A stretch of DNA of 64,000 bases from Mesodorylaimus sp. YZB2_4 (Eukaryota; Nematoda; Enoplea; Dorylaimida; Dorylaimidae): contig JASANH010001283.1 in assembly GCA_030248295.1 (NCBI GenBank), positions 434,001 through 498,000 on the forward strand. The letters run 5' to 3'. The notes under the pieces are model-generated. The model did no database searches, was not told the DNA's origin, and saw nothing but the letters and a program-made list of their open reading frames with translations. Both the position numbers and the translations under genes were made by a program. Shown in pieces: positions 15,317 to 62,635 of the stretch (within the stretch, counting starts at the first letter, position 1; the number at the start of each line of letters is the position of its first letter).

Positions 15317-18300
15317 TCAGGGAAGATTAAAAATCAATAAAAATGGGCCGAAGCTGCAAATCAGGGTCACAGTAATGGTCAAATTGAATTCTGAAAGAGC
15401 CGTGCCCTTGGACTTTCCTAATTTTTCTTTAAATGTGGCCATCGTAGCATTCATTTCTTTTTCGTTATTACACAGGTCACCCTTGCAGTAGCACGCCATG
15501 CACTTTGCTGCGATGCTTTTGTCGGTTTCTTCCAGATACTCGCAATTGCTCTCGTCCTCCTCTTCATCACTACACCCGAGAATAACAACCCCTCCCTTTG
15601 AGTCGCCTAAAAAAATTAACCAATCGTTCGAAACTGCAAAATTTACAAGATTTACAATTTCATAAAAAAATTGTCCAAGAAAACTCGACAAGTGGGATCC
15701 TTGCATGACATCCTTAATTATCTTTTCCTTTTCACCAGATATATTGTTTTTCACGGGACTAATTTACGAAGGGATCATCTCCAACCGCAAAATCGAACTT
15801 CGCGAAAGAAAACAATGTGCAAAAAATATGATGTAAAAGAAAGGTCTCTGCAAAATATTAGAGGTGCCTTGTCAACTGGTCAGCAGCGGTCAGCGCCTGA
15901 AGTCCAGTGAAAGTTTCGAGTGATTTTCATTCATTTGTGGTTCATTTGATCAGCTATAGACCAGCATTAGGATCGAATTGAAAAGCACTTCCTTTATCAC
16001 TTCGGATTGACAAGAATAAGTTTCAGTCCAAAATTACAAGAGTGGAAGTCATAGTCCCAGTTACTGCTGGCGTTGAGTCTGTGAGCACACCTCAATCAGC
16101 CAAGGACACGAATTCGTGTAATTTATACCCGATCACACGTGATGATTAGAATTTTTTGAGGGTGCTTATCAATGCAAACATAAATAGGCTACTGCACCAA
16201 CTTTACGGGGTCACTTTTCTGTGGCAGATTGAGGTTAAAACGTACTGATATTATCCGTCATAAAACAGATTGTAATTATGGTTGCAGTTATTTATAAGAA
16301 GGTTTCTGAGAGACTCGACCCATATTGAATATACTTTGGATACAGAATGCTCCCACATGGATCGAGAGTTCCTACAAAACTGATTGTCTTGCCGGGAGGA
16401 AAATTTTTTCAAAATGTCCATAAATGTAAATAAAGCACGTTCAAGGTCAAACTGACCACTTTTGATTAAATAGAAATTAGTTCAATAAAATTAGCCCAGC
16501 TTTAAACGTTCTTGAAATATTCGAAAAAACTTCGTGTTAGCTGTGATCAGACACAATCGATAATGGCGAAATTATAAAGCCGAAGCCTCCGTTTTTTCTC
16601 TGAAATAGTAGCCGGGGTCAGAACATCATAAAACAACCCTAATTTTCACACCATCACAATTATTGGGCACGTAGTTGATGACTGATAACCATTTCACAAA
16701 TTTTATCTTACCATAACCGATAATTATAGCTGCTGATTATTTGAAGTGATTAGTATTGGCTCATCTTTTACCCCATGAAAAGAGCTTTAGAATGTTTTTT
16801 TCCGCGCCTAAATTTGTTCTTTTTTTACTCGAATCGGCATAAAGTGCCCCCAGCGCGCTACTTTTGAATTTCTCGCCCGCGTGCCGTGCTTATTGAATGG
16901 CTGCGCTTCCGGCTGCCAACTCTGGAAATCGCGCTCGGACTAACTTTTCTTTTCTCGTGAAAGACAGATTCTCTAGAACAAAATTAGACCTGACACGTAT
17001 AGAGAAAAAGTAATGAAGTGATGAAGCCACCACGGCTCCCGGTAAGTCTACTACAGGTCCTGGTCCTGGCTCCTGGTCTACTGCTGTAGATCCATGATGA
17101 GAAGTGTCCATCTGGTCCAGCCATTATTAATACTGTAAATCGTTTTGGACCAGCTCAGCACCCAACAAACATACTAGTTTGTGAGTGAGTTTGTTTGAAA
17201 CCACTGTTTTGAAGACTTATCTTTTGCGAATGCTACTCATACCCTATAAAATATAGCCAGCTCCAACTTTGCAATCTATTCATTGCGAGAGATAATGATC
17301 TTTTAATTCTTTAACTGAGGTGTCACAGGGGCTCACTCGATATTTAATATGACACAAAATTTGCTCTCCTAAATTTCCTGATTTCTTTTCTTTGGAAGAC
17401 ATGATTTCAACGATAATGCGATGCCACGTGATGGGAAATGATTAGGAAGATATGCTGTGTACTACCAGCGATTCGCCGTGAATCGTGCAATTTGGATTGG
17501 TGACATGGATGGGCGCGTCGCGGGATACTACATGGACCAATGTAGTACATGGATGGGCCCATGTCTACATGAGGGCTAACGCGCCCCTCATGTACAGTAG
17601 TACATGTGCCACAATAACAATGACTTACCGAAAAGTTTGTGAAATGAAACTGGGAAAGGTAGTACATGTGGTTTGATGCGCCTTTGGAGCAGGCCGGCCC
17701 AGGCTGACCAAGGCTTTACGGTTGACAAGTAGACCACGAAAACTAGCCTCATTCATGTCACCATCAAGTTGCCGGGCAGGATCTTTCTTGGTCACTTTTT
17801 GTCAGCCTGGACCGGCCTGCTCCGAAGGCGCATCAAACCACATGTACTACTTTTCCCAGTTTTATTTCATAATTTTTTGTTAATAGAGAAACTGTAAGCA
17901 TGTCAGGAAAACAGGTACAGAGTTGCAGAGTTTTTGTATCATGCCCTATCACAAAAAAATATTTGTAAATATGGACCATAATTTCTGTTACTGAACATTT
18001 GTAAAAAGACCACTTTCATAAATTTTTGGTACTGAAAGAAAGTGCCCTCCTACTGACTCTTGCTAGAGCGAAGCACAGAGACAATAATGTGAATAAAATG
18101 GGCGTTCGAATAAGAGGCTCGACCATGATAATACTTGTAAAATTAAAATTAAAATTGAGATATGAGACTTGGAATACGAGACTAATCATGGCACCTATTT
18201 GGTGACCAGTTTGGGAATTTATAGGTCAAGGTTTTTCATCTGTCTGTAACTGACGTGACATACAATGTGATGGAGACAGTGAAGGCTCACAAGGGAACAT

Positions 18301-19007
18301 CGCCAGGGACCATTGAACAACGAATTTGGGAAAACCTAAAAATGTGACATGTTCCTGGGTGCAAAAGAAAGCTCTATGCAAAATATTAGGGGCGTCTGGC
18401 CAACTGGTCAGTTCTTGGTCAGCGCGAAGAGTACAGTGAAATTTTCAAATTCTGCTGGATTTTTTGGGTTTTTTCAGCAAAAAAAACCCCAAACCTGAAT
18501 GTTAAAAGCTTAAACTCGAAACTCCGAACCCAAAAATCTAGTTTGGAAGGAACTTTGCGTGTTTTTCTAAACGCTCAGCTTCGTTAATTAACACACAGGA
18601 CTTTAGACGCTGACCACTGCTGACCAGCTAGCCAAACGCCTCCAATATTTTGCACATAGCTTTCTTTTGCACCCAGGAACATATTACAATTTTTGGTTTC
18701 TCGAAGTTCGACTTGACGGTTGGCGATGTTCCCTTGTCAGCTCGTCCTTTGTCGCCAGGGCACCAGGGTCGACCCTACCCGTACCAACCAAAACTTCCAT
18801 CTTGGCAGATTGAAAAATTTAAAAAAACTTTTTCAAAAAGCGTTCTTCGATGCAGAAAAATAAGCTATCACTTACTGGTCTTCATAGCGCACATCGTAAC
18901 GGAGCAATATTTGCCTTGGCAGGTGCCACAGGGGCCTGATAGTAATGTCATTTCATTGACGTTGGTAGCATTGCAATTATGACATGTCACAGCGTTTATT
19001 TTAGTAC
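15317..19007 (-). CDS. Ly6/ET-module-like secreted protein, gene 1 (signal exon not found)
   Basis: Two exons are clear on the minus strand: 19007-18876 and 15606-15317, both GT-AG and phase 1. The first has six cysteines (VTCHNCNATN, CGTCQGKYC, VTMC). The second has CMACYCKGDLCNN, the CxC...GDxCN signature of Ly6/ET-module folds, then a hydrophobic tail (TVTLICSFGPFLLIF) typical of a GPI-anchor signal. By analogy with its three paralogues a signal-peptide exon should lie upstream of 19007, but I could not find one, so the gene may be partial or the exon may be beyond a repeat. The 3.3-kb intron holds a 447-bp MITE, a hairpin element and other repeats. An acceptor reading TTTTTAAG at 19008 is slightly unusual. 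Function unknown; expected at the cell surface. Confidence 0.6.
15775..15905. repeat. TNA-target MITE fragment (left arm)
   Basis: CGAAGGGATCATC, then AAATCGAACTTCGCG, then AGAGGTGCCTTGTCAACTGG and CAGCGGTCAGCGCCTGAAGT match the left arm of the 13378 copy in order. There is no right arm. It lies in the intron of Ly6-like gene 1. Confidence 0.6.
17641..17870. mobile_element. Hairpin MITE with 70-bp arms
   Basis: The left arm (17641-17711, with GGTTTGATGCGCCTTTGG) is the near-perfect inverse of the right arm (17801-17870), spaced by about 90 bp. A partial relative lies at 41246-41405. It sits in the intron of Ly6-like gene 1. Confidence 0.7.
18060..18289. repeat. Interspersed repeat shared with 52330-52530
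   Basis: GGCTCGACCATGAT, GGTCAAGGTTTTTCATCTGT and GTGATGGAGACAGT occur in the same order at both places. This copy ends exactly where the MITE at 18290 begins. Confidence 0.7.
18290..18736. mobile_element. TNA-target MITE, intact copy 3 (447 bp)
   Basis: Begins CAAGGGAACATCGCCAG and ends TTGGCGATGTTCCCTTG with long inverted arms. TCA flanks it on both sides (18287-18289 and 18737-18739). It is inserted in the intron of Ly6-like gene 1. Confidence 0.88.
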
Positions 19008-19335
19008 CTTAAAAATAGTTTAGTCGTAGAAAAGCGAGAGGGTGCCTGGCAAGCGGAAATTCCTTGAAATCATTGATGATGGAAGTAGAAGTCATTCAGG
19101 AACTCAGGACTGTATTATGGGCACCATGCATATTTATAACGTATTGTAATGTTTTTCATGCACAAAACAGATCTGACTCAAAGGAAATCAGCTGTATCAT
19201 TCTTATTCCTAAGTCGTCCTCTGTCGCCTAGGCACCAGGGTCGACCGTACCCGTACGCTACCCGTAACAACCAAAACTTCCATCTGGACAAATTAAAAAA
19301 TTTTAAAAACTTTTTCGAAAAGCGTTTTTCGTAAT
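18741..19335. repeat. Direct repeat pair flanking exon 2 of Ly6-like gene 1
   Basis: 18745-18850 and 19212-19330 share GGCACCAGGGTCGACC, then CCAAAACTTCCATCT and a run of A ending CGTTTTTCG or CGTTCTTCG. The six-cysteine exon (18876-19007) lies between the two copies, so recombination between them would delete it. Confidence 0.7.
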
Positions 19336-19339
19336 GAAC

Positions 19340-22072
19340 GAAGGCTTTCCGACTTTTTGGGAATTCGAAGAAGGAGCAACTGGCACCTGTGAAGCGAAAA
19401 CTGTAACTAAACTGTAACTTGACACCAAATCATCACACATTCGCACCATTCCATACCACTCTCGCCCTTGGTAATGGTGCGGGTAGAGTGGTATGGGGGT
19501 TTCCCCTTTTGTCAGGTATCAGATAATACTGTAGGCCTGTCTGGTATATACTGTATCAGTTGCATATTCATCGCCCATACAATCGCCCCCTTGTTTATTA
19601 GCCTCGTATTTGAAGCCTGCTCCTGTAGAGCCTACTAGGAAACAACCGTTGCTCACCTTCCAGCCCCACACACGCGCCCTACATTTGGATGAACTAGGGC
19701 CCTTTTCCCCTACCCCACGCCCTACATTTGGATTAACCATTCTTAAGAAAGTTCGGTCACACTACTGTTCTAGAATCGTTTTCATCCTGGTGCAGTGGGG
19801 ATCCAGGTCCCCACTTCGAGATCGATTCTCGCTTTAGAACAGTAATGCATTCTGGTGCGACCAGGAGATCAGTTCTGGACTGAATCTCGAGTTTTCAACT
19901 TGGAGCCTCTTTGTCATCTTCATCATATTGCATGAAAATCCCACATAGAGGGGTACAGTATATCTACACCTGATTTGAAGGTCTGAATCCAGAAAAATTA
20001 AAGATTTCTTTGCGCAAGATGCGCTATCGCAAAAGTATTCACAACGACCACGCATATCTGCTAGCACCTTCTGTTTTGAAGGGGTTTTTCGTATCCAATA
20101 ATAGTTTGAATGCCGCATAAAAAGAGTTCAAAAAGTGTCTCAATGCAGATCAGAAGAACGAAGAGGATAGGAGGTCGTAATAATTGTTGAATGTGAAAAG
20201 AAGCCTCGACTACTAGAGTACGAAGCCGGGATAAGAATCACCCCTAATGAGAGAGACCGTTTGCGCGCAGAGGCGTTTTTTATCGTAATACATGCCCCTG
20301 AGACTGCAACTGCAGGTAGCACATTGGCTGCCATTCGGGACCTCTCAGCAGATCAGACGGATTATAAGTTATGTTTGGTAATTCTGCCCCACTTTTGCTA
20401 TTTTCTTTCCCAAGTAACACGAGTCCTTTGCTTGGAGCTCTCACATAAGCCTACAGTAGATCAAGTCTGATATGGAATTCGAGTGCCGGATATTTTGAGT
20501 ATCAGCGCCAATGTGCAGATTTTTCTGCCTCGGAAAGCCTTAAGAACAGTTCTAGAGCAATTTCAAGGTAAGAATGGTTCCCGAGAACCATTGCAGAATC
20601 GTTCCCTATGACTCGTTGCGACTGCAGGTTTGGATGGGTGATATTTCGAGGAGTAGATTCTCCGCCATCCCAAACGCCCGCAACATGTGGGGCCGATAAT
20701 AAGGGGTCATGCCTCCTACAGACGGGGAGCCTGAGGCCAAAAAAACAAACGCAAGATGCGCCTGCGAAAGGGGCCTAACTTATCAAAGCACCTTGCCCCA
20801 ACATCTTCCGAAAAATCAATGCGCTGCAGCCATCTGAATTGGGGCTGATTAACAAGTTCTGCCTCCATCTCACAAGTCACTCATGAGAAGGGCCCGAAGA
20901 GTCGAGGTGGGACGGTCGTCCGTCAGACTTGTGACTTATCGCCCGGCTCTCTGTACTTGCAAAATGTCCGTCCTGGACGGCTCACAGGCTCCTTGTAAGA
21001 AGCCATCTCTCACTCTTTCACTTCTGAATGTGAGTTTGTTTGTGATGAAACGCGGATACGTGTAAAATAGACGTTTGTGGCGCTTTTAACACTTGGAAGT
21101 GCCTCGGTGAAACTTGGCCCCAGGCGGCGGAAGAAGTGAGAGATCAAAGTCTCTGGGATAAAAACCTCGAAGTGGAGGCAGGTTAGGTCGTCAATTGATT
21201 TCTCAACCTTTATCTGATCCATCTTTAATTCTTGATGACCTTAGACAGACCAGCAGAGAAGAAGCCGCCGCCTTCCGCTGTCGCTGCTGACAGCTTTTGG
21301 ATCAGTTTCACCCATCTGCAACAGAAATTAGGAATGAGGATAATAGCAGTCGTATTTGGGCGATCAAGCTATTCCAGTTACATACAGTATGCTGAAGTAC
21401 TGAATTGGCAAAAAGTGCTACCTTTGAGTCAGTTTTTAGATATAGTGGTTTGACAGTGACTGATTCACGAAATCAACTGGCCCCTGAAACCGTGTACAAT
21501 TTACTTAATAAACGCAATTTCGATCAGAAGCCCTAATTTGCGTGAAATAATTTCTTCAGCGTCAGAAATAAATACTGCGTTCATTTTACAAAAACAAGTT
21601 TTTCAGAAGAAAATCGGGTTGGGTCGTGTTAGGAAGGAATTTCACGAAGGGTTGGGGTCCGGTTTCGAATTCACACTTTCGGTCATTCACACTTTAGGTT
21701 TTGGATTTGGGCGTATTTCGCGGTTTCTGGCTGTCAGTCACCCACTAGTATTCCAAATAGGAATCTCTTACTGATACCCGGTATGTTTTGAAAAATCAAA
21801 TTTTCAAAATCTTGATTTTTCGCGTTTTCAAAGGGGTGAAGTATACCGCCTCCATGCCTGAGTGTCTATAACAGCCGAAAACAAGCTGCCCGCGCTCTCC
21901 AGAGTGAGATATACGGATGGTAATACTGTAATTTTGCAATAGTGAATATAAATGCTACTCAGGTAGAATTGATGGAGTGGAGTAAATATTTACTAGAAAA
22001 AGAATCGATTCTTAGTCATTTCAAAGTTCAAAGTCATTTCTTACGATCAGAGAAACCACCCGTTTAGTCGAA
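19340..22072. other. No confirmed gene; one weak exon candidate
   Basis: Mostly unrecognised sequence with short direct repeats (CGCCCTACATTTGGAT twice near 19675-19735). On the minus strand, 20060-19975 is bounded by a TAGCAG acceptor and a CAG|GTGTAG donor and encodes a cysteine-containing stretch (GRCEYFCDSASC). It could belong to another member of the secreted family, but nothing links it to one. Confidence 0.25.
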
Positions 22073-22445
22073 ATGTGGCGTTTTCTGTCCAGGCAGAAGC
22101 AGAAAGATTCTGAAAGAAATCTTCCTGATCCAGAGCTTTCCGAGAACCCAACTGAAATCGTTATAGCGTCAGTTTTGGCAGCTTCTCAAGCGACTGCAAG
22201 TAAACGCCGATATTCGTACAATCATTATGACGCCACTTTCCGACACAAAGTGGCCCGATATGCAATTGCAAATGGCGATGGAAATGCGGTTCGAAAATTT
22301 TCAAAATGTTACGGACGTCTTTCGTTCACCTCTTTACTTCGTGGATCTGCCCTTCGACAGACACACACTCCTGCTCTATACGGATCAATTCATGCCACAG
22401 AAACCGGATCAGACAGACAAAGCAGGCATCAAAGGTGTACGGTAG
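22073..22445 (+). pseudogene. ORF with psq/pogo-type helix-turn-helix, frame-disrupted
   Basis: Starting ATGTGGCGTTTTCTG, the frame gives a basic N-terminus, then SYNHYDATFRHKVARYA and GNAVRKFSK, the pattern of HTH domains in pogo/Tc1-like transposases and transposon-derived host proteins (YxxxFKxKVVxYAxxxGNxxAxRKF). Protein-like sequence then continues in a different frame (FRSPLYFVDLPFDRHTLLLY) to a donor-like AAAG|GTACGG at 22439. Either the ORF carries a frameshift near 22310 or it is misassembled. No DDE catalytic domain is visible downstream. The family call is by pattern only. Confidence 0.4.
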
Positions 22446-22873
22446 GCCTAGAGATCGAGCCAAATGCGTCCATGATATTCAGCCCCTCTTTCTATCTTTA
22501 TCGCATGCCGTCATTGATCTCTTCCTTTCCTTTATCGTCATGCTCGTCCTCGATATCCTCGTCGTCGATTTCTCCAATCATCTGATCGGCGGCGGAGGCT
22601 CTGGTGACGCTAAGGACGTGGCGCTCCGACTTGCAAATATCGTGAATAAAGTACCTGTGCACTGCCTGTAGGTCCGACCTGTCTCTAATTGTGCGGTGCG
22701 TTATTTTTCTATTCTCACTCTTCCCCTGCGCAGAAACCCTCTTCCTTTCTTTTTTGCCCCTACCCTCGTACCACCCGAATATACCGACGAACTATACTTC
22801 GCAAACAGTTATGCTAGCGTGCTCACGCGATATCTTTCAATGTCCCCCTATACTGTACAGAGAAATGACCTAG

Positions 22874-23283
22874 TCATATCCTCTTCCCTTCTTTGGCGTG
22901 CATTTCTGTCTCTGACTCATATGCCATTACGACTCCTTTCTCAACCATATCTTTTGGCCTCTCTGCCTGTAAAAACTCCATAAAACTACCAACATCCGCT
23001 TTCAACACTTGTTGTAAATCAATTGTGTGCGCTAAGTCCTGCCCGAAGTACTGCGCGGTTGCAAAGACACGGTTTACAGTCTGGCCTATCGCCATGCTTA
23101 GTGCGAAATCTGTATCTACGTAAATACGCATTAGTTCGTTCCGTGAGCTCACGCTGCACCTGTTCGTTGTCTCGGCACCACATTTAACAATATCTGCCAA
23201 AGACAGGGCAGCGAATACGGTAACCAGCCCTATATTGCTATCGCAGGTGTTGCTTGCACTGGTGTTGTTAATGAGAACTCATC
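22874..23283 (-). CDS. Unknown ORF, probable terminal exon
   Basis: An open frame running from just after a TGA near 23283 to the TGA at 22876. It encodes a mostly helical, soluble-looking segment (ALSLADIVKCGAE, IYVDTDFALSMAIGQTVN, HTIDLQQVLKADVGSFMEF). Amino-acid composition and the lack of low complexity make it look genuinely coding, and there is no ATG near its start, so it is probably a 3' exon. An AG candidate lies near 23263. I do not recognise the family. It lies 3' of Ly6-like gene 2 on the same strand, with a 0.2-kb gap. Confidence 0.4.
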
Positions 23284-23494
23284 CGGAAATTCCTCAAAAG
23301 TTGGCCATATTCACCCTGTCGACATACCAGCCTTAAATTTTTTTACGTTACGCGGAATGAGTCCCCAAATAGAGTTTTAACAACAAACTTTCTCTGAACC
23401 TTCACATACTCCCTTGTATTTGTGTTTGTCAATCAAAGGCAAAGAATCGCACAGAGAAATTATATTTTTGCGTGTAAACATGAGTCTGAAATTT

Positions 23495-26419
23495 TTAATG
23501 AGACAAAATTAGCATCAAAGAATTTATGAAAGAAGCCCATAATCCAAGCTTCGCTTTTGTCAGTCCGCCATCGGCTCCCCCCACAAGGGCAAACGCTTTC
23601 TTCATTTCTTTATCATCATTACACGAGTCTCCAGAATCGCAATAGCATTGCCCGCACTCAGCGACGCTGCCAGAGGTTGTCTGTGACACTTTTTTGCATC
23701 CAGCTTTTTCATTTGGTTCACATTCAAAATGTAAACTGAAAGCCCCGACGTCTAAAAGAGCGTTCAGAGTATTTTCTGACGAAAACTAGTAAAATTAGCT
23801 GCACACTCTAGGGAAGCAGGTATGTTTGACCAAGTAACGTTATTCGATGTTGAGGAGGAGAAGCCATTGCAGATTTGATGTGAGTTCTGACCCATGCAAG
23901 CGAATCGAGCACGTTGCCTCACGATCAATGCAAAGAGTCCTCACAATAAAACTACAGGGCGAAAAGATGGATAAGGTTTGTTGGGGCACGTAATTGTGAG
24001 ATACACAGGTGATGGACCCACATGAAATAAAACTTGGCTAGTAAAAATTTCAAGCCCATGATTTATTGAGCTTTTTTAAGTTCTCTGTGTCTTTATCGCT
24101 AAGCTTGTTTATCTTCACGCCTGGGCTCCTTACCACACAAAAATTCAAAAATTCTTTCAAAATTTTTCATAAAATGCTTTCCAGCATATTTGTAGGATAT
24201 TTTAACCATATCTAAGTACCCGTATATTTTTTCTGAACTTCATATCATTACTGATCGGAGAAGACTTTCACAGAAACCCCTTTCGAAGTAGCTAGGTAGA
24301 TTCAGTTGCTAGTAGATAGCGGGGCCGACATATACCTACTGCACGGGGAATTGGCCGTCGCATAAGTCCCTGGATAGCGCAGCAAACAGGCACCCAACGC
24401 GACTGTACTTTCTACCTGCAGTTGTGGATGCTGCTGCGCATACCCCTACAGCGCAGACGTTGGATTCGCATGTCGAGGCCGCGTTGCAATCCGAATTAAG
24501 AATTTCTTCTTTGTCATTTACGAATCGTACTTGTTCAATGCATTTACGACATTTTAGACTGCTGCACATTTGGCCTATAATGAAAAAAGCAGGAAACACC
24601 AGAATTCTATTCAGCGACCTCTTCTTCAATTAGTCTATGAGCTCGATAAGGATAAATAGTCGAGCTTCCAATAGGAGAAACGGCTTTCGGTCCTTCACCC
24701 TTCCGTGCACAATTAACAATCACCTCTGCTTCTGGGTTTTCAATTTGTTCCAGGCAAAACCCTCCGGCGACACTCGTCGGTCGACACAGTGCCGATCAGG
24801 CCCGGCGATGAGTTAGCCCGAGTCATTCGAGGTCATAGATGGAACTTTTTGGAAGGCTAGACAGCACTTCACAGCAGTACCAGAGAGACAGGAACGGCCA
24901 CAACAAAACACAAAGCGGCTGCTTCGCTGTGGGGCTTACCTATCCATAACATTACTTGTTGTAATACTTGTTAGTAGACTAAGGCGACCTTACTTACCTG
25001 GCCTAGGGCCAGGACTGTGACAGGGAGGTTACGGGCAAGGGCCACAGATATGGTATTTCCCATTTAGGGATACGGTTGGTAAAAATACTTCATTCCAGAG
25101 ACTTTGCGTATGCTTATGCGTATACGCAAAGGAATGCGTATGCGTATTGCGTAATACGCAAATTGCGTACCCCACAAAGTATGCATACAAGTTTAGCGTA
25201 TTGCGTATTTTTTTTCAGTCAGTTCCTAGCCCCAAACTGTGACTAATTATGTACCCTCGACTAAAAATATCAACGATCATAGCAGCTGCAAGGTCATTTT
25301 GGCATGGCAGTACATTTCGCTGCCGCTTATGGCAGGCTGTAAACGTAAAAATAGAAAAATTCCTGTCAGCTTCGATCATGGATTCTTTCCAAGCACTCTT
25401 ATCTCCCACCCAATCGGTGCCTTAATTGTCATGAAAAGTTTCAGCGCGGTAGTTTTTTAAACACTCGTTCAGCGAGGGCGGAAAATGGTGGCGGCGACGG
25501 CTACGAGGGTACAAGGTAATATTTAGCTTTATATAATCCAAAAACCTAGTACAGACTTTGGCTTTGAGGCAGCAGACCTGAATGACTGACCAAGTATCTT
25601 TGACATAACATTATTGACCCTATTCGATGATGAAAGCAAGTCTTTTTCCAGCACTCCGTATTATATATACACCGCTCTGCAGAAGCGCAATTCACTGGCT
25701 GCCCGATTATGTGAAGAAACATGCTGTAGACGCTTCCTTGGCATTTTCCTCATACAGTACGTAGGCTCGCTTTGAGAGGATCATCATTGAGCAACCTCAG
25801 AACTACTAACTAGTGAATCATTTCGCGGAATCGAATACAAATTCCTCCACCCACCCCGCTTGGTCTCACACAATGTACACACACACACACACGTACTGTA
25901 CCTTACTGAGGAGGCTAAATAAATTACCTTAGTAGCAAACTCGCTACAAACGATTATACTTACTTCTTACTGTGAAGCCTGGATAGGGACCAATGCATGC
26001 AAACGCGCAGGGGCTCTTGCGCTAAAAACTTCTCTTTATGCTGGGGGCTTAATATGAGGCTTTCATGAGAGCTTTATTGCGACATTAGGATAATTTAGCT
26101 CAAGCTGCTTATATTGGCGCACCCATTATATATATTGCGTACAAGCCAGTTTGCGTGTGCGTACACGCGTACATCGGTTAGAATGCGTCTGCGAATGCGT
26201 ACGCGTGTACGCATCCAAATCTCAATGCGTAATACGCAAACTTTGCGTGTGCGTATTTTTTACGCAACCAACTGTATTTAGGGTCTGGTTTATTTGCAAC
26301 CAGAGGAGCTAAGATTTTGGAGATCTGGTAGGCAGCAATAGCAGGGAGTAATAGCACAACAGTTTTGTTTCTCCGGCCATCACACCTAGCCCTGTAGAGT
26401 GTGTCAATTTCCTTATTCT

Positions 26420-26467
<48 letters not shown>

Positions 26468-27442
26468 CTGTGTGTCCCCGCATTCTAGCAGACAATAGAT
26501 TCTCGTTGCACACGTACAGGACTCAAATTTGAATATGCTATCTGGCATCTACTAATTTATCATGTTCGGGATCACAATAATCAGGACTAATTGATAATTA
26601 GGTGATTTATTATACATAGTGATAAATGGGTGATCAGAGTGACCAAGGGATTATCAAAGTGAATCAGAGTGATCATTGAGGGATCAGAGTGATCAGTGAG
26701 TAATCAGAGTTATCAGTGAGGGATCAGAATGATCAATGGATTATCAAAGTAAATCAGTGAGTGACGATCAGAGTGATCAGTAAGTGATCGGGGTAATAAG
26801 TGAGGGATTAGAGTGATTAGTGAGTTGTCAGAAGGACAGGGAGTTTTCAGCCTAGGCCTAGTCTAAAAGGAAGAAGCAAGAGCTCCTTCTTTCCTGCTAG
26901 TTTTGTTCTGGCATTCTCATAAGCTTTATTAGTGCCTGCAATCTATATTGGCTTATTTGATGGTATCAACCTGTATGGGTTGTGCTAGATTGAAGCATGC
27001 GGAGCTAATTGCCTTGCTAGTAAGGGCATACACCGCCATAGTAAACAAGATTGAAGAAACTGCAGTTTCTGTATGTTAATAAAGCTTCACCAAAGCTGAC
27101 ACCAAACTTATAATTGTTTAAATGAAGGAGAATAAGTCTTTCTTCTCAAGTTAAATCACATCAGGTGCCAATTGATGGCTGGGGTGGTACACGTGAGACA
27201 ATGAATAATCACACTATGTGAGCAAATAACACCGTAGGTTGAAAGTTAGCAGATAACAAGGCTATGAGAACTTGAACAGGCCAGACCCACGACATTTAAA
27301 GAGAGTAGATTCAATTCTGTCATTTTTCTCCAACCTGGTCAGCTTTGTTCCAGAACAGCTGGCTAAGCAACATTGGTAAAAAATATGCTCGCTTACGTGA
27401 AGACACCAGAATGATAAAGAATAATAACGACTTGTACTTCAT
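23495..27442 (-). CDS. Ly6/ET-module-like secreted protein, gene 2
   Basis: Three exons on the minus strand: 27442-27397, 24574-24416 and 23751-23495 (46+159+257 nt = 153 residues plus stop), all junctions GT-AG and phase 1. Exon 1 is a signal peptide (MKYKSLLFFIILVSS). Exon 2 carries SLKCRKC and four more cysteines. Exon 3 has CGQCYCDSGDSCNDD, the CxC...GDxCN signature, and ends in a hydrophobic tail (GLWASFINSLMLILSH) suited to GPI addition. The 2.8-kb first intron contains a Tc1-like element, a TG repeat and a tandem array. A TTTTAG acceptor 59 nt before the ATG suggests a 5' UTR or trans-splice. Expected to be an extracellular, membrane-tethered protein; its partner is unknown. Confidence 0.75.
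25073..26274. mobile_element. Tc1/mariner-like non-autonomous element rich in TACGCA
   Basis: The left end reads TA|CGGTTGGTAAAAATAC and the right end GTATTTTTTACGCAACCAACTG|TA; a TA dinucleotide flanks both sides (25071-25072 and 26275-26276), as for Tc1/mariner insertions. Both ends carry palindromic clusters of TGCGTATACGCA-type words (25110-25220 and 26130-26265). The centre holds a short CA repeat and no transposase. It lies in intron 1 of Ly6-like gene 2. Confidence 0.6.
26405..26466. repeat. (TG)n microsatellite
   Basis: About 25-30 TG dinucleotides, preceded by GTGTGAGTG. Confidence 0.95.
26625..26835. repeat. Degenerate GATCAGAGTGATCAGTGA tandem array
   Basis: About a dozen imperfect units of 16-20 bp built on GATCAGAGTGATCAGTGAG. 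Unit length drifts, so this is an old minisatellite. Confidence 0.85.
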
Positions 27443-28330
27443 GGCATCCACCAAATGCAATTAATTCTTCGCGGCTGATAACACTAACCAAATTGAAACT
27501 CCTAAAATTGGTGCAACTAAATTTCGTTATCAGCATTTGGTAATTAACTTATGAATCTCGTGCTGACTGTACATAAATTTATTTATCGTTTATTTATGAA
27601 GCGGTCATTGCCGCCAGAATGTAGTTACACACAAGTCTACTGCGCCGCTGCTCGACCTCTTCGCACGCTTTGATTCTCTTTAAGAATACGGTATATTCGT
27701 TTCCTTTAAGTATAGATTCATAGTCAGCAACAGAGCTTAATGATCAGATGATGTGAGATGCCCATGAGTTTCGTTCCGCTCTTATCGCGAAAGCGACTTT
27801 TACTGTACTGCCCCTAAATTTCTGCGCACCATAGCGTCGCCAAAATCCGCGATGCAACAGCATGCTTCTTTGCTAATTATAATTCACACAACAACCCGGC
27901 GGCTAATCTTATCGAACCAGGATTGAAATAAGCGACATTTTGTTGCCGCTAGTCAGAACCAAACAAATTGTAGCAAAGCTCAACTGGCTGTTCTATTGCA
28001 GCGAAGATCAAGAAACACCCACAATAATTCTAGGTTTATAAATGTTATTACAACACAAGCCGTTTTGACTAATAACTTTTTTATTTTCGCACTGTTAGTT
28101 GATGCGAAAGGATTTAAGGCACGTGGGCTGGTCCTATTTTGGTCCTAGTTTGGCTCCGAAACGCTGATCACTGTGTTTTGGATACTTTCAGTTCGGTCGC
28201 GGTTCGGTTTGGCTGCTTGGTCGAAGCTGGCACGCAGCAGTTCCATTTGCGTTGGAATGCTTGGCATGCGTAGGAGAGAATACTACGAACCGAGATTGTC
28301 CGCGTCGATAGTCATCAGTGGTCAGGCTGA
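27443..28330. other. 5' flank of Ly6-like gene 2; otherwise no gene seen
   Basis: The first 100 bases hold the acceptor at 27501/27502 shared with the paralogues. The remainder is AT-rich with no ORF I can support. A weak protein-like stretch begins just after it at 28332 (SQHSDSPPKRSHRDYSPVF) and ends near a GAG|GTTTTT donor at 28469; it is unsupported by any neighbouring exon. Confidence 0.3.
27501..27502 (-). promoter_or_regulatory. Splice acceptor 59 nt upstream of gene 2 ATG
   Basis: On the minus strand AATTTTAG|GAG. The same acceptor and neighbouring bases recur before genes 3 and 4. It is either the end of a 5' UTR intron or a spliced-leader trans-splice site. Confidence 0.5.
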
Positions 28331-30370: not shown

Positions 30371-30379
30371 TCTAACAAG

Positions 30380-36149: not shown

Positions 36150-36320
36150 TTCTTGCTTCCTTCGATTGTTCGTATTTATCGATCAGAGGCAAAAATTGTA
36201 TGAAACTGGGGAAAAATCGCAGTGCTGTGTTTCATGTCTGTCAAGTGATCATTGGAATCGAACGGAAATTGAAGCAATGATTATGGTCGTCCAAAGTCCA
36301 AACATTGCTAATCATGTTTA
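36150..36320 (-). pseudogene. 3' relic of a Ly6/ET-module-like gene
   Basis: Aligns over about 170 bp with 40285-40440, the C-terminal end and 3' flank of gene 3 (TATTTATCGATCAGAGGCA, CAGTGCTGTGTTTCATG). On the minus strand it still encodes a FGLWTTIIIASISV-type GPI tail. The cysteine-rich part upstream is gone and a stop lies just before the tail region. It marks a lost array member between genes 2 and 3. Confidence 0.7.
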
Positions 36321-40374: not shown

Positions 40375-43099
40375 TCAGTGGAACGAAACGGAAATTGAAG
40401 CAATGATTATGGTTGTCCAAATTCCAAACATTGCTTTTCTTCCTACACTGTCTGGGAGCAGTTTGACCGCTTCATCTAATTGTTTATCATCATTGCATTT
40501 GTCACCCGAGTTGCAAATGCACAGTGCGCAAGTAACGACCACGCCAGACTCCGTCTTAGTTGAGCTGCTGCATCCCATATTTGTCTCAGTCGCACAGTCG
40601 AAAACGCCCGTGATAGCTGACACGTCTAAAACAGCATATGTACTGCACCCCATTTCCCAAATTAGCGTTTTCTCACTAAGATCTTTGCTATTTTCTGAAT
40701 AAGACTCCGTGAGTCCGTGCTGAGATCTCGGTCAGATTTAGCCCAGATCTTAGGCAGAGCAGGGAAATCCTAGGGACGTTTTTAAGCTTCTGACTTAGAT
40801 CCTTACATTTCCCTAAGATTGCTCACTGGCGCTTAGATTTTGCTCAGACTTTGTGATAAATACGTGAGATAGGAAATACAAGTGTGCACGATTTTGTCTT
40901 GGGATAGGGCATAGGGTTTGTCACGATTTTGTCACGAGTCCATGCTGGTGAGCATATAAGATCAGCAAACGATAATTTTAATCTCCAGCTCCAGCTTCCA
41001 GCAAGTGTTAGAACTGATTAATACAGGCAAATTAAGATTATAAGTTATTGTTTGTGCGAAGTAGTCTTCACAGATGAAAAAGTCGCAAGTTAACTAGCAA
41101 TAGATAACATAGGCAAGGCTTTCTGTAAATGCGGACCATATGAAAATTGCATTTGAAGTAGAGTATAGTTGTTGTAGGACATGGGCATTTTAAATTAGCT
41201 GACCAGGCTATATTCAATGAAAAAATTTCATAATACAAAACTGAAAGGCTGCAGATGTGGTTTAATGCGCCTCTGGAGCAGGCCGGTTCAGGCTGACAAA
41301 TGGTGATCAGGAAAGATCCTGCCTGGCTATTGGCTGGTCACATGTATTCGCAGTTTTGGGGTTGACAAGTAGACCATAAAAACTAGCCTCAGTGACGATA
41401 CCAACTTGCGGAGAGTGGCTGAAATCAGAAGACTGGTTACCGATACCATAGCTTTAACCTCCATGTCCATGTCCCATAGCCATGTCTGATTTTTGTAAAA
41501 ATATTGCAGGTGCTCTTATTTCCGGCAGAAAAAAAACGCAAAAAATTTCTCGGCTGAATTGTGTCGAGAAGACTTTTTTTTAAAACCTAATGAGCTCGAG
41601 GAATCATTTTCAAAAACTCTTTTCTTAGAAAATCGTTCAACTTTGAACTATGTCATTGACATCAAAGTATGTTCAGTGAAAATTTTAGTCATACGCCACC
41701 ATACATTATACACCTAACACCAAACCACGCTCAAACCATGGCTTTGATTTGATGCTGTGCAATGAAATCTGCGAGTCTCTTGAAGTTGAGAGAAAGATTT
41801 TCTTTAGAATTGAGTTTTTGTGATGTAAACGCATTGGTAGTTTGCATACTTCCCAGGTTATAGTCTCACGTCACTTGCTTACGCACAGCTTATGGTCAGG
41901 CTACCGCAAAGGGTACTTCTGCGAGAATGTTACCAGCTTCTAGCACTAGCTAGCGCGCCTGCTCTGCTTAATATCGACAAGTAAAGTAGTTGTCTACTAG
42001 GGTCTTTAACAGTGTTAAATTTTTCAAATTCCCCACAGACACCTGGAATATTGAGAAGTCGATCCATGTTTACCTTTCCAGATAGCCCAACCAACCCCGT
42101 GCGGCTTGCAAGATAAACTGTAGCTACTTCTTACCGTGTTTCCCGGATGCTCCTCCACATACCAGTACTGAGCAGGCACTGCCATCGCATTTTGCTGCAT
42201 CCGCGCAAGTATCATGGCTTGCTTCTTTGTCACCTTTACTAACTATAGCCGAGGAGCATTGATTACATTTCAGACTGTTGCCCAGGTGACCTGTTAAAGA
42301 GAGATGGCGGGAAAAATTATTTGAACAAAAATTTAATCAATAATCATTTTGTCTGTATGCTCGGCGTCAATCATCACACATTATAATACAAATCAGGGCC
42401 GAGATACAGTTTCCTAGCTTTGTCAAGAAAATTAAATTTTTTGTCGTAACGCTCCAAGTTTTCGCTGGGTAAGTTCGCAGTCCTAAAGCTTTCGCGCGTT
42501 GAAGCACCCTTATCAATGGAGTGATCATCTTATATACTGTATCTGTTTTGTATATTATTTCCAAGCGTCAAAAATTTTGTCAGACTGATGTGTCATTTTT
42601 CAGCAACTTTGTGGAATGGAATTTTAATAAAAGCCATATTTTTACCAAACAAATCAGCATATTGTCCGAAAAGATTGCGAAGGACACACACATGCGTCAG
42701 GCTTATCCGAGTCCGAATGAGGCAACCTAACCAGCAGAAGCTATATATATCAGGAAAGCCATTTAACCAAGATTTGACGCCCTTCAGGAGCCAACCCGCT
42801 GCCTAATTTCGGGGAAGCCATAGATGGACTACGCTGATGTGCTTGGTCAAAGGTGTCGGACGAGAACATGAGTAGATCAGCGCAGTGTCATGCATTCAGG
42901 GGTTTATATATGGGCTGGTAGTGCATAGCTTCTTCCTTGGTAGCCTATATTTTTTCCTGCAAACCTTGGCAACAGAAAGACTGCCGAGGCAGACCAACAG
43001 ACATTGTTAATGATAGCATATTGAACAAGAATGAGCTCACTCACTAAAAGAAACTAAGAAAATAAAAAATAATAACGACTTCTTTGTCACCGAATCCAT
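40375..43099 (-). CDS. Ly6/ET-module-like secreted protein, gene 3
   Basis: Three minus-strand exons: 43099-43045, 42290-42135 and 40625-40375 (55+156+251 nt = 153 residues plus stop), all junctions GT-AG and phase 1. Exon 1 encodes a signal peptide (MDSVTKKSLLFFIFLVSF). Exon 2 has NSLKCNQCSS and CDGSACSVLVC. Exon 3 has VTCALCICNSGDKCNDD, the CxC...GDxCN signature, then a hydrophobic C-terminus (MFGIWTTIIIASISVSF) as a likely GPI signal. Twelve cysteines in all allow six disulfides, more than the eight to ten of ordinary Ly6 domains. An acceptor at 43145 lies 46 nt before the ATG. Intron 2 contains a hairpin-MITE relative. This is the cleanest member of the array. Role unknown. Confidence 0.78.
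41246..41405. repeat. Partial copy of the 17641 hairpin MITE
   Basis: GGTTTAATGCGCCTCTGG, GTTGACAAGTAGACCA and the inverted GATCAGGAAAGATCCTGCC match parts of 17641-17870, rearranged. It lies in intron 2 of gene 3. Confidence 0.6.
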
Positions 43100-43144: not shown

Positions 43145-43146
43145 CC
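43145..43146 (-). promoter_or_regulatory. Splice acceptor 46 nt upstream of gene 3 ATG
   Basis: On the minus strand TTTTTTTAG|GAGG, at the same place as in genes 2 and 4. Confidence 0.5.
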
Positions 43147-55704: not shown

Positions 55705-55724
55705 ATGGTCTGCTTCTGATTTAA

Positions 55725-57019: not shown

Positions 57020-57089
57020 TTTAATGGTCAGACAATTCATGACAGGGAATCAGACGTCAGACGTCAACTTCCCTCAGAAGAGGTGAAAT

Positions 57090-60000
57090 TTAAACCAAGA
57101 CTTTTTTCGTGGTCTTACAGAGTCTTATTAGACTTCTTCTTACCGTTGGCCCGACGGAAAAAATTTCAGGTGGTAGCGTCGTTATCTCTTTCCCTCCGTG
57201 TAGTTTGTCCATCGCCATCTTAAATTGGTTTTCATCGTTGCATGAGTCACTCGAGTCGCAAAAGCATAGTCCGCAACGAAGAACCTGCGATTTATTTTCA
57301 CTTCTGCATCCCGTAGTGGTCAAATTCGAGCAGGAAAAAACAGTATAGAGAGTAGAGTTTTCTAAAACAGTGTATGTAGCGTTTTCTTGCAGGAATAATA
57401 AAAAACCGACTCCCAACTTTTCTGACAGGCCCGTTGCATTTAGGGGGCGCCCCCCCCCCCCCATGTTGCGCATATTGTGCCACACCAAGAACGATATCTC
57501 AACAGCCTGATGTCGTAAGGCGATGAAATTTCGTTTCTTGGTGTAACTTTACACTAGACAAAGTTACATTTTGACAAAGTCACAAAAGAAAGGCAAAGTC
57601 ACAAAGTTACATAGTTACAGGAATTTTAAAAAATCTATCAATTCAGGCTCCATTCATACTAGGGGTGGTTATTTTCGCTAAGACTTGCGAACCGTGTGCC
57701 AAAACCGATGAAATTTTGGCGTGGAAAGACCAATAGTTGGGGAAGGCGTGATGCAAAAATCTTTTCAAAATCTCTGCTATCGTTCTATGTATGTAGATAA
57801 TTATGTGCTATTTATGTGCTACGAATGTATTGACCCGCAAGATCGGGAGCTGTGTGCGAGTTGGGGATCCAGCTGTATGTTTAAACGACAGGGTAGAATC
57901 ACTGCTGGTGCCTTTTGGTGTTAATTTTGACTAGGTTTTGCCCTCTGTTTAGCCCTTCGTAACTACAGTACGTCTGTTGAGCGTTAAGGCACGGTGTCGT
58001 GCGTGCTCGACATAATTTTACTGCGCAGAGGGTAAAGAGATAAGACAGCCCAATAATAGTCATCGGATGGATGATGAACCTCATCAATTTTCCAAATAAG
58101 GTTCGGTTTTTTAAGTGTAGAGTCATTCGCCTTATTCTGTCCGCTCCCTCCAAGCTTCGACTATAGGGCCTCCGAAACGACAATGAGTGTTATATACATG
58201 TGTGGTGCCGCAAACGATACTATTTTGCACATGCTGGCGTCCGGCAAGGCGCCGTGGACTAGATTCACTAGTATACTAGGTGGTTCAAAACAAAGAATTA
58301 GTCTAATTCGTGCATCATCGTATTCCTGTATTTCGTTTGAAAAAACCAATAGACAGCATTTATGATTATCTTGATGCGCTCTTCGTTCATCGACTACGTA
58401 GAGTCCGGATTTCGTGCGAGCTCCAGAATTAATTCTCCTAATTGATTTCAAAACCAAATTTCGAGCGTTTCAAGCAAAGTTTCTTATATATTTTTGGAAT
58501 TCCTTGCCACACGATGTGCTACTCTTACAATCAGTTTTGCATCTTTTCGTGACTCCATTTCGAGGTTGATGTTTGACTGACGAAGTATGGTTTTATCTTT
58601 TTATCTTTCTATTTATCCATTTTATCGAGTGATGTTTGAATTCCGAATCCATTGTACTTGCTCTTTTGAGTGCGCATTTATGTGGTTAGGTAAGAGTAAA
58701 ATAGAAATACAAATGGGTTAGACACGAGATCAACAATATCGGCCTGGCAGCAGCGCGTGAAACAGGAGCGATTTTGGATCCATCCATGCCTTCATCAATG
58801 ACAAGGGCGTGATTCTATAATATGATACCGCTAATATCGTTACCTAACCGATTCAGGAAATCTTGGGTCTCCAAGCCTGCAGCCAGCAGAGAGTCTGGAA
58901 GGGTATCCAAATTTGGTGATCGAGATGTTTGGTGAAACCACACCAAGGGCCACTGGGCGATCAAACGCGTCAGCAGCCGGTGTTAGTGACCAATGAAGAA
59001 GCAACTCCTGCTTTTGGCCAGGATTGTATTGCAGCGTTCAAAGTGGCCCCAGTCAAATTCACATTCGCGGATCTCTTCAGCGACAACTTGTCGCATCAAC
59101 GCGAACTGTTAGCTTAGTGTTGAATGTATACGATCTGTTCGAATTACTATCACTAGTAGCTGCGGGGACATTTGCGGGGACCAGGTACCCACCGAAACCT
59201 TTGCTTTGTGTGACTTAATGGAAAAGGTTCGTTCGCCTAGTTCGCCTAGTTCGAAGTGAAAGAGTTCGTGAACGGTCAGGTTGCTTATGTGGGAAGATTC
59301 GCCACGTCATAATCCTGGCTTGGTCCAAGGCCACAAAGCGGCCATCCTCATGTCCGACGCGTTTCCAAAGATGCCACGTCCAGTGCCACTGTCGATTCGA
59401 TCAGCGGCGGACGCAGAAATCGATCGGTTGGCAAAAGATGGAGTCCTGGAGACATTAGATTCTACCGCAAGAATGTCGACTGGTGGCACTCTTACTTTGC
59501 TCCCGAATGCGCGGGGCGCATTGCGCTCAGGCAGTTCTTTTGTTAGCAGTAACACTAAAAGTAAGATTCGGAATCAGAGTCGCGCGCTTCTGTTCCTTCT
59601 CTGGGTGGGCTTCTGCTGTGACCGCAGCGAAAGCAGAGCGCGAAAACGACGGAGTAGTAAAACAGTTTGCAGGGAGTTCTTGCTCACAACTCAGCTTAGC
59701 GCTCGACGCAGCAGTGCCAACAGTATATGTGCATGTCATATCATGTCATGTCATACTTTATCCATAGCCAAGCACCGTACTGGGCACTCGAGGACTGAGG
59801 AACACATATTTTACAATCATTTCTCTGAGGCGGGAGTCGAGCCCTGCCCTCGAGGTGCGCACCCAGCGTGAGATGCAGACTCCTTAACTCGATAGGACAC
59901 AACCCTGGGTGAGTATACAGGACTCCGACATGCGAGTCGATTTTCAATTGCGTTACTATCCTCCAACCATCAGGAAATGTAGTCCAATCTAGAAGTTCAA

Positions 60001-62635
60001 AATGAGCGCCGAAGGCGCGATCTGAGGGCGCGAAGCGCTCGGGAGAGGCTGGGGTGCGGTAAAGAGTGACAGTAAAGAGAAAAGACCCTTCGTTCCTGCG
60101 TCCTAACACGATAAGCAGCTTAGCGGGTGTAAATTATTATCTGTTGTCCTTCTTTACATCACTCGCGGTTGCTCTCCAGTCCGCGACAGCCGTTGGCCCA
60201 ATGCAACCCCTTGTGCGCGCCACTGGGGTTCATCCCTGCATCCCTGCCTAAGAAAATTTTAATCTTGCACTCCGAAAACACATAATGTGTTGAGTGGCAT
60301 GCACCGAAATAGCCCTAAGTTATCAAAACATCTTCTGAAATCGCTACCACTTTCTGAAATATCAAAACGCTGGTCCTCTGATTTAGAGTTTGGGCTTCTT
60401 TGTCCCCGACACTATGTGTTGAGTGGCATGCACCGAAATAGCCCTAAGTTATCAAAACATCTTCTGAAATCGCTACCACTTTCTGAAATATCAAAACGCT
60501 GGTCCTCTGATTTAGAGTTTGGGCTTCTTTGCAAGTTCTGCCTCGATCTGTCACAAGTCGCCCTCTCTAAGTCTCCTCTTTTACTGTACAAGAGCTGGAA
60601 AAATCGTGGTGAAACGCTCATCCATTGTGCTTGTGACTTGATATATTTCTACTGTATATACTTGCAACGTGTTTCTACTGGAGGGTTCACAGGTATGTAC
60701 AGATATCTGATTACCTGCTGGCATCTCTCAGGCCTTCTTTTCTAACTTGCGATTTTGTTTGTGACGAAACGCGAGTACTAATAAAGTGCCTCGGCGAATC
60801 TGGGCCGTGAGCTTACCAATTCAACCAAACGCAGCTCGGCAAGAAGATGAATCGGTCTCTTGATTCCTTTGACGGACTTCTAACTTCTTCACAGAAACTA
60901 TGGGTATATTTCTAATGGACGAAGAATCCTCTAAAGTCAAGTCATTTATCAGGATATTGCTCTCAAGGACTTCAGATCAGCGCAACTCTGTCTGTGTTTT
61001 ACCATTGATGCAATTAGCAACATCATGAAAACCCTTTGCGCAGGACAAGTGATGCGATGTTTTTTTTATCTAAACATGTATAATTGATCCCCAAACTGCG
61101 CAAGTCTAGAAGTAGGTGATCCTGGCCTTGATGGCTAAATTAGGACATCATTATCTTTTATTTATTAGACTGCGCTTGCATGGTAGCGGCTCTTTGGGAG
61201 GACCTACACTTCCAGTCGATGCATTTCACTTTTTAATTTCGCAATCTTCCCGAATCAAGACCCTATATATAGGCTTGATGTTTTTGGGTACGGTACTAAC
61301 TAAGTCACATAAAAACATTTTTTCCGGAAATTACAAGCATAATTTTCAATAAAGAGCGCAATTAAGGGCCGCTCGAGACTTGGGATTATTTGCTTATGTT
61401 CTGAGGATTGCGGGACAAGCCATTTGGGAGGTACCAGTAATATAGCGCAAGCAGCACGGCTTTGTATACTCATTATGAGTTGGAAATATCGATTACTTTA
61501 TATTATTTCATATTTAATAACGTGAAAGTCTTAGTTGACCTTCGTAGACACCCAGAAAATTGTAAGGCTGGAAAAAGTCGATATCCCTGATTCTCTAAAT
61601 GGTCCAGCCATGCAGGTGACTTACTCGGTAAGCCTACTTCTTACCATGGCTTCTTACCTGTTAAGCAAGCAGCTGTTCCGCAGGTTCGGTCTTCGCAAAT
61701 CTTTGAAGCATCGCAGTCTGAGCGAATTTTCTCTTTTCCGTCTTCTTTTGCAATCTCAGTGCAATTACGGCATTTCAGACTGTTGCTCATGTGACCTAAA
61801 TAAAGACAACTGGCGCGATAAAATAAGAACAAATTTGAACAAACAAGCTGCAAGCGACAATAATCATAGACTTTTTATAAGCGAGTGTATTCGCCTCCAC
61901 GGTGTCGGCGTTCACCCATTTCCAGTCTGTGCCCTGAAGGGGCCCCGGGTTCGAGACTCTTCCGCCCCAAAAGGCCTCCTCGTTTATCGACATGGAGGGA
62001 TGAGGGATGAGTTAACCACCACCGAGCTTGCAAAAAGAACTTCAACAAGCTCTCAGACGGCCAGATTTGAACTCAGTCAGAGCCGACTGGCTTCCAGCTC
62101 TGCCGAGCAGATTGGACACAAAGCTTCCAACTTGACAACTTGACCCTCTCACCGATACACCGAAGCTTCAAACTTGAACCTGCAAGCTTCTACTCAAGTG
62201 TGGCCTGTGCTTTGCAACTCGATAACTGCTGCTTGCTCAGTTCTGTCTTTTCATTGCATTCTTCCAGGGAAGCACTAGCTCAATTCTGCCACAGAACCAT
62301 TGGCACCATGTCACACGTAACTTGCCTAGCTCAATTCTCTCATTTGATCTCATGACAGAATTTGAGCTATATGGTCCTCAAACTGCAAATTTCAGATCCA
62401 TACTGTAAGCTTCGACTTTTGACCCCAGTTTCATTTGTTATGTTGGTGCACAAATGAGAGATGACACGTTTAGTGATGCGACACTCCTTCTAAACCCAAT
62501 GTTCAAGAAATCATCAGCTGCGGGGCTTTGATGGCCGCAGACTTATGTTCAGACGTAGCATATTAGTAAACAATAATGCGCATACTCACTAAGAGACACT
62601 AGAATAATGTACAATAATACGGACATCCTCACCAT
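57090..62635 (-). CDS. Ly6/ET-module-like secreted protein, gene 4
   Basis: Three minus-strand exons: 62635-62590, 61795-61658 and 57361-57090 (46+138+272 nt = 151 residues plus stop), junctions GT-AG and phase 1. Exon 1 is a signal peptide (MVRMSVLLYIILVSL). Exon 2 has NSLKCRNCTE and CEDRTCGTAAC. Exon 3 has LRCGLCFCDSSDSCNDEN, a CxC...DxCN signature. Unlike its paralogues the C-terminus (RRSLIRLCKTTKKVLV) is basic, not hydrophobic, so the GPI signal seems lost or read out of frame; the protein may be freely secreted, or the gene may be decaying. The 4.3-kb second intron holds a gypsy-like scrap and a 129-bp duplication. Linking exon 3 to exons 1-2 across it rests on phase and order. Confidence 0.6.
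57449..57464. repeat. Poly-C run
   Basis: About 14 C in the second intron of gene 4. Confidence 0.9.
57540..57625. repeat. ACAAAGTTAC/GACAAAGTCAC short repeat
   Basis: Six or so degenerate 10-12 bp units (ACAAAGTTAC, GACAAAGTCAC). Confidence 0.65.
57660..58900. other. No gene recognised
   Basis: Intron 2 of Ly6-like gene 4. Open frames on both strands overlap; none is convincing. Confidence 0.25.
58920..59560 (+). pseudogene. Ty3/gypsy-like pol fragment
   Basis: A short stretch in one frame (59317-59460) reads AFPKMPRPVPLSIRSAADAE then IDRLAKDGVLE, the conserved start of a gypsy-type reverse transcriptase (RPVPxxLxxxVxxELDRLxxxGIL). Similar protein-like sequence upstream (58929-59117, LVTNEEATPAFGQDCIAAFK) would be the preceding linker. 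Frames are broken and no RT active site (YxDD), RNase H or integrase is seen. It is a dead remnant inside intron 2 of Ly6-like gene 4. No LTRs found. Confidence 0.5.
60285..60531. repeat. 129-bp tandem duplication
   Basis: 60285-60402 and 60414-60531 are identical over 118 bp (start ATGTGTTGAGTGGCATGC, end GGGCTTCTTTG), with an 11-bp spacer. The period of 129 is a multiple of three, so the plus-strand frame stays open through both copies (SKHLLKSLPLSEISKRWSS twice). Whether that frame is translated is unknown. Confidence 0.85.
60540..61640. other. No gene recognised
   Basis: Intron sequence of Ly6-like gene 4. Short unrelated frames only. Confidence 0.25.

Follow-up and report, generated by a model that had tools for sequence, protein, structure and literature searches.

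Organization of the locus

We analysed a window of 64,000 nucleotides (positions 434001-498000 of contig C63) from the genome assembly of the nematode Mesodorylaimus sp. YZB2_4, which comprises 145 Mb in 1067 contigs. Four genes for cysteine-rich proteins lie on the minus strand of the window. Their exons, in window coordinates, are the following:

Gene 1, exon 2: 18876..19007, minus strand; six-cysteine half of the domain, 132 nt
Gene 1, exon 3: 15317..15606, minus strand; second half of the domain and hydrophobic tail, ending in a stop codon
Gene 2, exon 1: 27397..27442, minus strand; signal peptide (MKYKSLLFFIILVSS plus 1 nt), 46 nt
Gene 2, exon 2: 24416..24574, minus strand; six-cysteine half of the domain with one extra cysteine, 159 nt
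Gene 2, exon 3: 23495..23751, minus strand; second half of the domain and hydrophobic, GPI-signal-like tail, ending in a stop codon
Gene 3, exon 1: 43045..43099, minus strand; signal peptide (MDSVTKKSLLFFIFLVSF plus 1 nt), 55 nt
Gene 3, exon 2: 42135..42290, minus strand; six-cysteine half of the domain, 156 nt
Gene 3, exon 3: 40375..40625, minus strand; second half of the domain and hydrophobic, GPI-signal-like tail, ending in a stop codon
Gene 4, exon 1: 62590..62635, minus strand; start codon and signal peptide (MVRMSVLLYIILVSL plus 1 nt), 46 nt, followed by the donor GTGAGT
Gene 4, exon 2: 61658..61795, minus strand; six-cysteine half of the domain, 138 nt, with a phase-1 intron on either side
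Gene 4, exon 3: 57090..57361, minus strand; second half of the domain (C-x-C-x5-C-N) and cationic tail VRRSLIRLCKTTKKVLV, similar to the tail of gene 5 (see below), ending in a stop codon

The six junctions of the original prediction (24416/23751, 27397/24574, 42135/40625, 43045/42290, 62590/61795 and 61658/57361) are all placed on GT...AG sites, and the spliced models reproduce the predicted lengths of 153, 153 and 151 residues for the joined products of genes 2, 3 and 4. The signal exons of genes 2, 3, 4 and 5 measure 46, 55, 46 and 46 nt, every one of them a single nucleotide longer than a whole number of codons. The six-cysteine exons of genes 1 to 5 (132, 159, 156, 138 and 156 nt) consist of whole codons in all five cases. 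Thus both introns are in phase 1. Exon lengths and splice sites fit the proposal that the four minus-strand genes share one plan with phase-1 joints, and in gene 1 this plan is represented by two exons.

A strict scan for signal exons returned a single splice-compatible exon for each of genes 2 to 5, with two possible ATG codons in genes 4 and 5. For gene 1 the strict scan, which asked for a short hydrophobic exon with an in-phase donor, found no signal exon in 19008-23400, and a relaxed scan of 19007-23480 gave a single poor candidate. With a looser donor the minus strand of the whole window yielded six rows, four of which represent the three known exons and two of which are others. Gene 1 might, through alternative or read-through splicing, be supplied with a signal exon by gene 2 or by a different gene upstream. 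The phase would fit and no convincing signal exon was found between genes 1 and 2, but a missed unusual first exon, or exon loss, is the simpler explanation, and we regard the sharing of a signal exon as very unlikely.

A potential intron at a GTAAGA site within the tail of gene 4 was considered, but we favour a coding reading. The corresponding stretch of gene 5 terminates at the same codon. Over these 18 codons, admittedly a small sample, the two genes differ at 4, 4 and 7 sites in codon positions 1, 2 and 3, and pS is 0.5 versus a pN of 0.21, again for 18 codons only. The common end, the distribution of the differences over the codon positions and the excess of pS over pN together are why we read the tail of gene 4 as coding.

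Upstream of the known first exons we observed acceptor-like sites. The one belonging to gene 2 is:

TTTTAG: 27502..27507, minus strand; acceptor-like site 59 nt before the start codon of gene 2

Corresponding TTTTAG sites are found on the minus strand at window positions 43146 for gene 3 and 62692 for gene 4, and at 79872 on the window scale for gene 5, with distances to the start codon of 46, 56 and 49 nt, respectively. Hence all four genes with a known first exon have such a site. Trans-splicing or a leader intron would fit this arrangement. A search with the spliced-leader family RF00198 gave no match, but it is uninformative, since the controls gave none either.

C-terminal tails

The tails come in two types. 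In genes 1, 2 and 3 the last 18 residues have a mean hydropathy of 1.67, 1.12 and 1.54, and these tails are hydrophobic and GPI-signal-like. In genes 4 and 5 the corresponding values are 0.16 and -0.63, and the two genes have a cationic stretch in common which contains six (gene 4) and seven (gene 5) lysine and arginine residues.

Relationship between the genes

The five genes are divergent, with pairwise identities of about 18-44%. The highest identity is that between genes 4 and 5, with 62 of 140 residues, and around their first exons these two can be matched over 181 columns with 76% identity. We built leave-one-out profiles and searched with them all open fragments of at least 15 amino acids from a six-frame translation of 107 kb. 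In ten out of ten tests the omitted exon came immediately after the training genes, with E values from 3.8e-5 to 4.3e-18 in nine of them. The tenth, the six-cysteine exon of gene 1, is not significant on its own (E = 0.16, with the next noise match at 0.24). The pattern C-x-C-x4-5-C-[N/D], which was derived from the genes themselves, occurs at four places in the fragments of the 107 kb and these are exactly the four genes of the window. Furthermore pN is smaller than pS in all ten gene pairs, with dS near saturation. The leave-one-out ranks, the twelve shared cysteines (see below) and the low pN argue that the genes are real, divergent paralogues. We thus confirm that the gene cluster of the original prediction is real.

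Extent of the array

The array was thought to end at 62635. It does not: a search of the genome with gene 2 first detected a matching exon past the end of the window, and this exon turned out to belong to a fifth gene, on the same strand and with its own signal exon, 13.8 kb past the window end in the flanking sequence:

Gene 5, start codon to end: C63:513822-511798 (79822-77798 on the window scale), minus strand
Gene 5, exon 1: C63:513822-513777, minus strand; signal exon
Gene 5, exon 2: C63:513184-513029, minus strand
Gene 5, exon 3: C63:512042-511798, minus strand

A search for additional copies in the remaining 7.4 kb of C63 past gene 5 was negative. As the contig stops at position 521239, additional members of the array might be located on a different one.

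When genes 1, 2, 3 and 5 served as queries against the genome at E values of up to 10, no other close copies appeared among the matches listed, and the copy counts from these searches are lower bounds. Weak matches of the same queries are located on contigs C8 (E = 0.047) and C70 (E = 0.075). The locus L021, with an E value of 0.075 to gene 5, was dropped, as the matching stretch lacks the cysteine lattice when read on the correct strand. A divergent relative with 40% identity to part of the last exon of gene 1 (E = 7.5e-10) lies at C47:669042 (L024). In its surroundings a six-cysteine half and a tail like that of gene 1 are visible by eye in frames that disagree, which suggests that this relative is decayed or misassembled. 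Possibly it represents a sixth, broken member related to gene 1. Near this locus we also observed two COX1-like fragments (C47:671918 and 674854), maybe nuclear mitochondrial copies.

Within the window there is one fragment of a known member:

Truncated copy of gene 3: 36173..36309, minus strand; corresponds to the last coding bases and the 3′ flank of gene 3 (40302-40435)

This copy comprises 137 bases, is 85% identical over 139 columns and is situated about 4 kb downstream of its source. In addition, the stretches 32735-32834 and 40651-40752, the second of which lies inside the intron of gene 3 just before exon 3, are 75% similar. The likeness possibly marks a further piece of a decayed duplicate.

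The truncated end of gene 3, the disagreeing frames of the C47 relative and the missing signal exon of gene 1 could be taken to mean that the cluster is decaying and that some of the copies are non-functional. In genes 2 to 5, however, the frames are open and the splice sites and the twelve cysteines preserved, and pN is below pS in every one of the ten pairs. We therefore judge this explanation to be unlikely.

The cysteine lattice

By order, twelve domain cysteines can be recognized in all five genes, and five of the eleven gaps between them are constant (2, 4, 4, 2 and 1). The twelve cysteines span 79-89 residues in each of the five genes. In exact register there are 11 cysteine columns in the automatic alignment of four genes and 10 in that of five, with cysteines 3 and 7 shifted by gaps. 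The number of twelve that had been proposed is correct for the domain in all five genes and exceeds the ten cysteines of the Ly6/uPAR (LU) domain, whereas the totals for the whole proteins are 13, 13, 12, 13 and 15 for genes 1 to 5.

We compared the array with four LU-like proteins of the same genome. Among them L038 alone exceeds the cut-off of a curated LU model; for L041 and L043 the matches to the Quiver/sleepless-type model QVR are sub-threshold, and L026 has no LU match. The protein L026, an open frame of 419 residues (1405-2661, contig C8), carries three cysteine-rich modules with 12, 12 and 8 cysteines. Twelve cysteines are thus not unique to the array, as modules 1 and 2 of L026 hold the same number in other spacings. 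L041, an LU-like open frame with a hydrophobic tail, and L043 have ten cysteines, and L038 has eight.

The known disulfide pairing and cysteine positions of CD59, as given in PMC4839075, served as the basis for matching the lattice to the LU domain. Cysteines 1-5, 7, 8 and 10-12 of the array can be lined up with LU C1-C5, C6, C7 and C8-C10. Here cysteine 5 rather than cysteine 6 was taken as LU C5, a choice that follows from spacing. Cysteines 6 and 9 would then form an extra pair above the canonical ten, one in each domain exon, and judging from the spacing the simplest reading would be one added disulfide across the two domain exons. By eye both are absent from the ten-cysteine protein L041 and from module 1 of L026.

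Relation to the Ly6/uPAR family

PMC4492491 lists as Ly6 criteria at least 10 cysteines in 60-110 residues, a C-x2-C start, a C-N end, a C8-C9 spacing of 0-1 and a C9-C10 spacing of 3-5. All five genes have at least ten cysteines within 60-110 residues and C-x2-C at the start of the domain, with extra Cys just before it in genes 2 and 5. The C8-C9 spacing is 1 and the C9-C10 spacing 4-5 in all five, which is within the LU range. The last cysteine is followed by asparagine in four genes and by serine in gene 5.

The gene plan agrees as well. According to section 4 of PMC6600238 the standard LU gene consists of a signal exon and two domain exons separated by phase-1 introns, and such genes occur in small clusters. 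Ly6 genes typically comprise three exons, the last of which holds the GPI-anchor part (PMC4839075), and four SmLy6 genes are located within a 41-kb cluster in Schistosoma mansoni (PMC4492491). In the array the full three-exon phase-1 plan is seen in genes 2 to 5, and two exons only in gene 1. The second intron lies between the positions of LU C5 and C6, which from the order of the cysteines would be the tip of loop 2. The array resembles the human 8q24 and SmLy6 clusters in having a signal and two domain exons, phase-1 introns, a presumed loop-2 intron, the C-x2-C start, in four of the five genes the C-N end, in genes 1-3 a putative GPI signal in the last exon, and local clustering. It differs from them in the cationic, non-hydrophobic tail of genes 4 and 5, and from the LU domain in having twelve instead of ten cysteines and no Pfam LU match over the cut-off. 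The phase-1 exon cassette of the original prediction, with its exchangeable exons, is therefore ordinary, because a signal exon, two domain exons and phase-1 introns are the LU anatomy as published in PMC6600238. No sign of exon exchange was apparent in the array.

For none of the five proteins is the cut-off of any curated LU model (UPAR_LY6, QVR, CD59) reached. The three Pfam families that had been named for checking, ET_module (PF01684), UPAR_LY6 and Activin_recp, do not appear in the results for genes 1-4 at E values of up to 10 and for gene 5 at up to 5, where the filters of the scan drop most matches above about E = 0.1. The nearest approach is that of gene 1 to QVR (PF17064), with E = 0.063 and 14.7 bits against a cut-off of 27.3, over 85 of 86 profile positions. 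Gene 1 thus aligns over nearly the whole of this profile, albeit below the cut-off, whereas genes 2-5 have no QVR match. The last exon of gene 1 is also listed in the genome-wide QVR search, again sub-threshold (E = 0.126). The filing as LU type therefore rests on anatomy and on the order of the cysteines.

A profile of genes 1-4 found no match among solved structures at E values of up to 10. Against the four LU-like proteins of the genome the array profile gives a probability of 3.6% (P = 0.012), which is weak. In global alignment the score is 16.3, compared with a maximum of 8.6 among 60 column-shuffled decoys and 3.7 for the reversed profile; in local alignment it is 19.2 with a decoy maximum of 16.6 among 60. 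The comparison with the triple-module protein L026 alone was discarded, since a probability of 1.5% is too weak for use. The C-x-C-x4-C-N ending of gene 1 is common to L041, L043 and the modules of L026. As to the yardsticks themselves, L038 is likely a true Quiver/sleepless gene (QVR E = 1.3e-8, eight cysteines in the matched stretch), and L041 matches QVR with E = 3.3e-4, below the cut-off. On contig C5 a group of four weak QVR matches is located at 1106-1120 kb.

In the original prediction the genes were called Ly6- or ET-module-like. The first half of this name stands on the gene plan, the cysteine lattice, the tails and the clustering; for the second half the Pfam scans gave no PF01684 match. 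The array shares with the ET module its occurrence in nematodes and the richness in cysteines, but the Pfam model matches none of the five proteins, and a filing as ET module or activin receptor was rejected for this reason. A genome search with PF01684 also returned nothing, but it says little because its controls were silent too. One might still propose that the genes belong to the nematode ET module or to another curated nematode cysteine-rich DUF family rather than to plain Ly6. The C-x-C...CN ending and the multi-cysteine pattern would suit such a family, and L026, whose modules end similarly, has a sub-threshold match to DUF7622 (E = 0.021). As PF01684 does not appear for any of the five genes even at the permissive thresholds given above, we hold this assignment to be improbable.

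It is also conceivable that an unrelated family of secreted cysteine-rich proteins arrived at an LU-like order of cysteines by convergence. This would be in line with the lack of a family model over the cut-off and with the weak profile likeness to the other LU-like proteins. However, the plan of the genes, the position of the intron, the motifs at the ends and the GPI-type tails all fit LU together, so that convergence appears quite improbable to us. We prefer to see the array proteins as divergent members of the LU type, whose gene plan is already known and which would be set apart by one additional pair of cysteines and by tails of two kinds.

Proposed origin and function

Exon plan, phases, twelve-cysteine lattice, tandem orientation and tails are read from the sequence. 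On this basis we consider it very probable that the locus is a nematode tandem cluster of at least five LU (three-finger) genes with a three-exon plan, which arose by local duplication.

We suggest the following course of events. Local duplication would have given rise to the tandem cluster of at least five LU genes. In each gene the signal-peptide exon would be joined to the exon for the first half of the domain and this in turn to the exon for the second half and the tail. The protein could then enter the secretory pathway and adopt the three-finger fold, in which ten cysteines would follow the LU pairing (1-5, 2-3, 4-6, 7-8 and 9-10). A sixth disulfide might connect cysteine 6 (exon 2, after LU C5) with cysteine 9 (exon 3, before LU C8). 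The products of genes 1-3 would be GPI-anchored on the cell surface, and genes 4 and 5 would yield secreted products with a cationic tail. By analogy with the family, the finger loops might bind and modulate an extracellular protein partner, for example a receptor or a channel, and the copies, having diverged in loop sequence, might serve different partners or tissues.

A more far-reaching view would make the array a nematode LU subfamily of its own, with the extra 6-9 disulfide joining the domain exons, a division into GPI-anchored (genes 1-3) and secreted cationic (genes 4 and 5) products and, owing to the phase-1 joints, a gene 1 that possibly borrows the signal exon of a neighbour. We regard this combination as unlikely.

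The array adds to the nematodes a small, clearly organised cluster of Ly6 type which is missed by the curated models. It suggests that the LU gene anatomy can outlast sequence similarity. With their additional pair of cysteines and their two types of tail, the genes would offer a modest test case for the diversification of LU proteins after tandem duplication, and the general view of the LU family is left unchanged.

Other features of the window and the genome

From the 366 open fragments of at least 60 amino acids in the window, ten were scanned for domains and two of these exceeded the cut-off. One is an open frame with a SAND domain at 1788-2966 on the plus strand (E = 1.7e-21), the other a frame of 593 codons with an F-box domain at 10553-12331, also on the plus strand (E = 1e-8). 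An inverted pair of short tandem arrays with a 17-base unit is located at 53237-53378 and 54152-54313.

Elsewhere in the assembly, COX1 matches are found on both strands within 3.2 kb at C73:251445-254668, in a palindrome-like arrangement on a contig of at least 254 kb. Probably this is an assembly artefact or a nuclear mitochondrial copy. A COX1 locus is open under genetic code 5 and likewise under codes 4 and 9. Finally, the assembly can be recognized as that of a nematode by PF01484, the presumably nematode-specific N-terminal domain of cuticle collagens, which has 133 matches at E values of up to 0.001.
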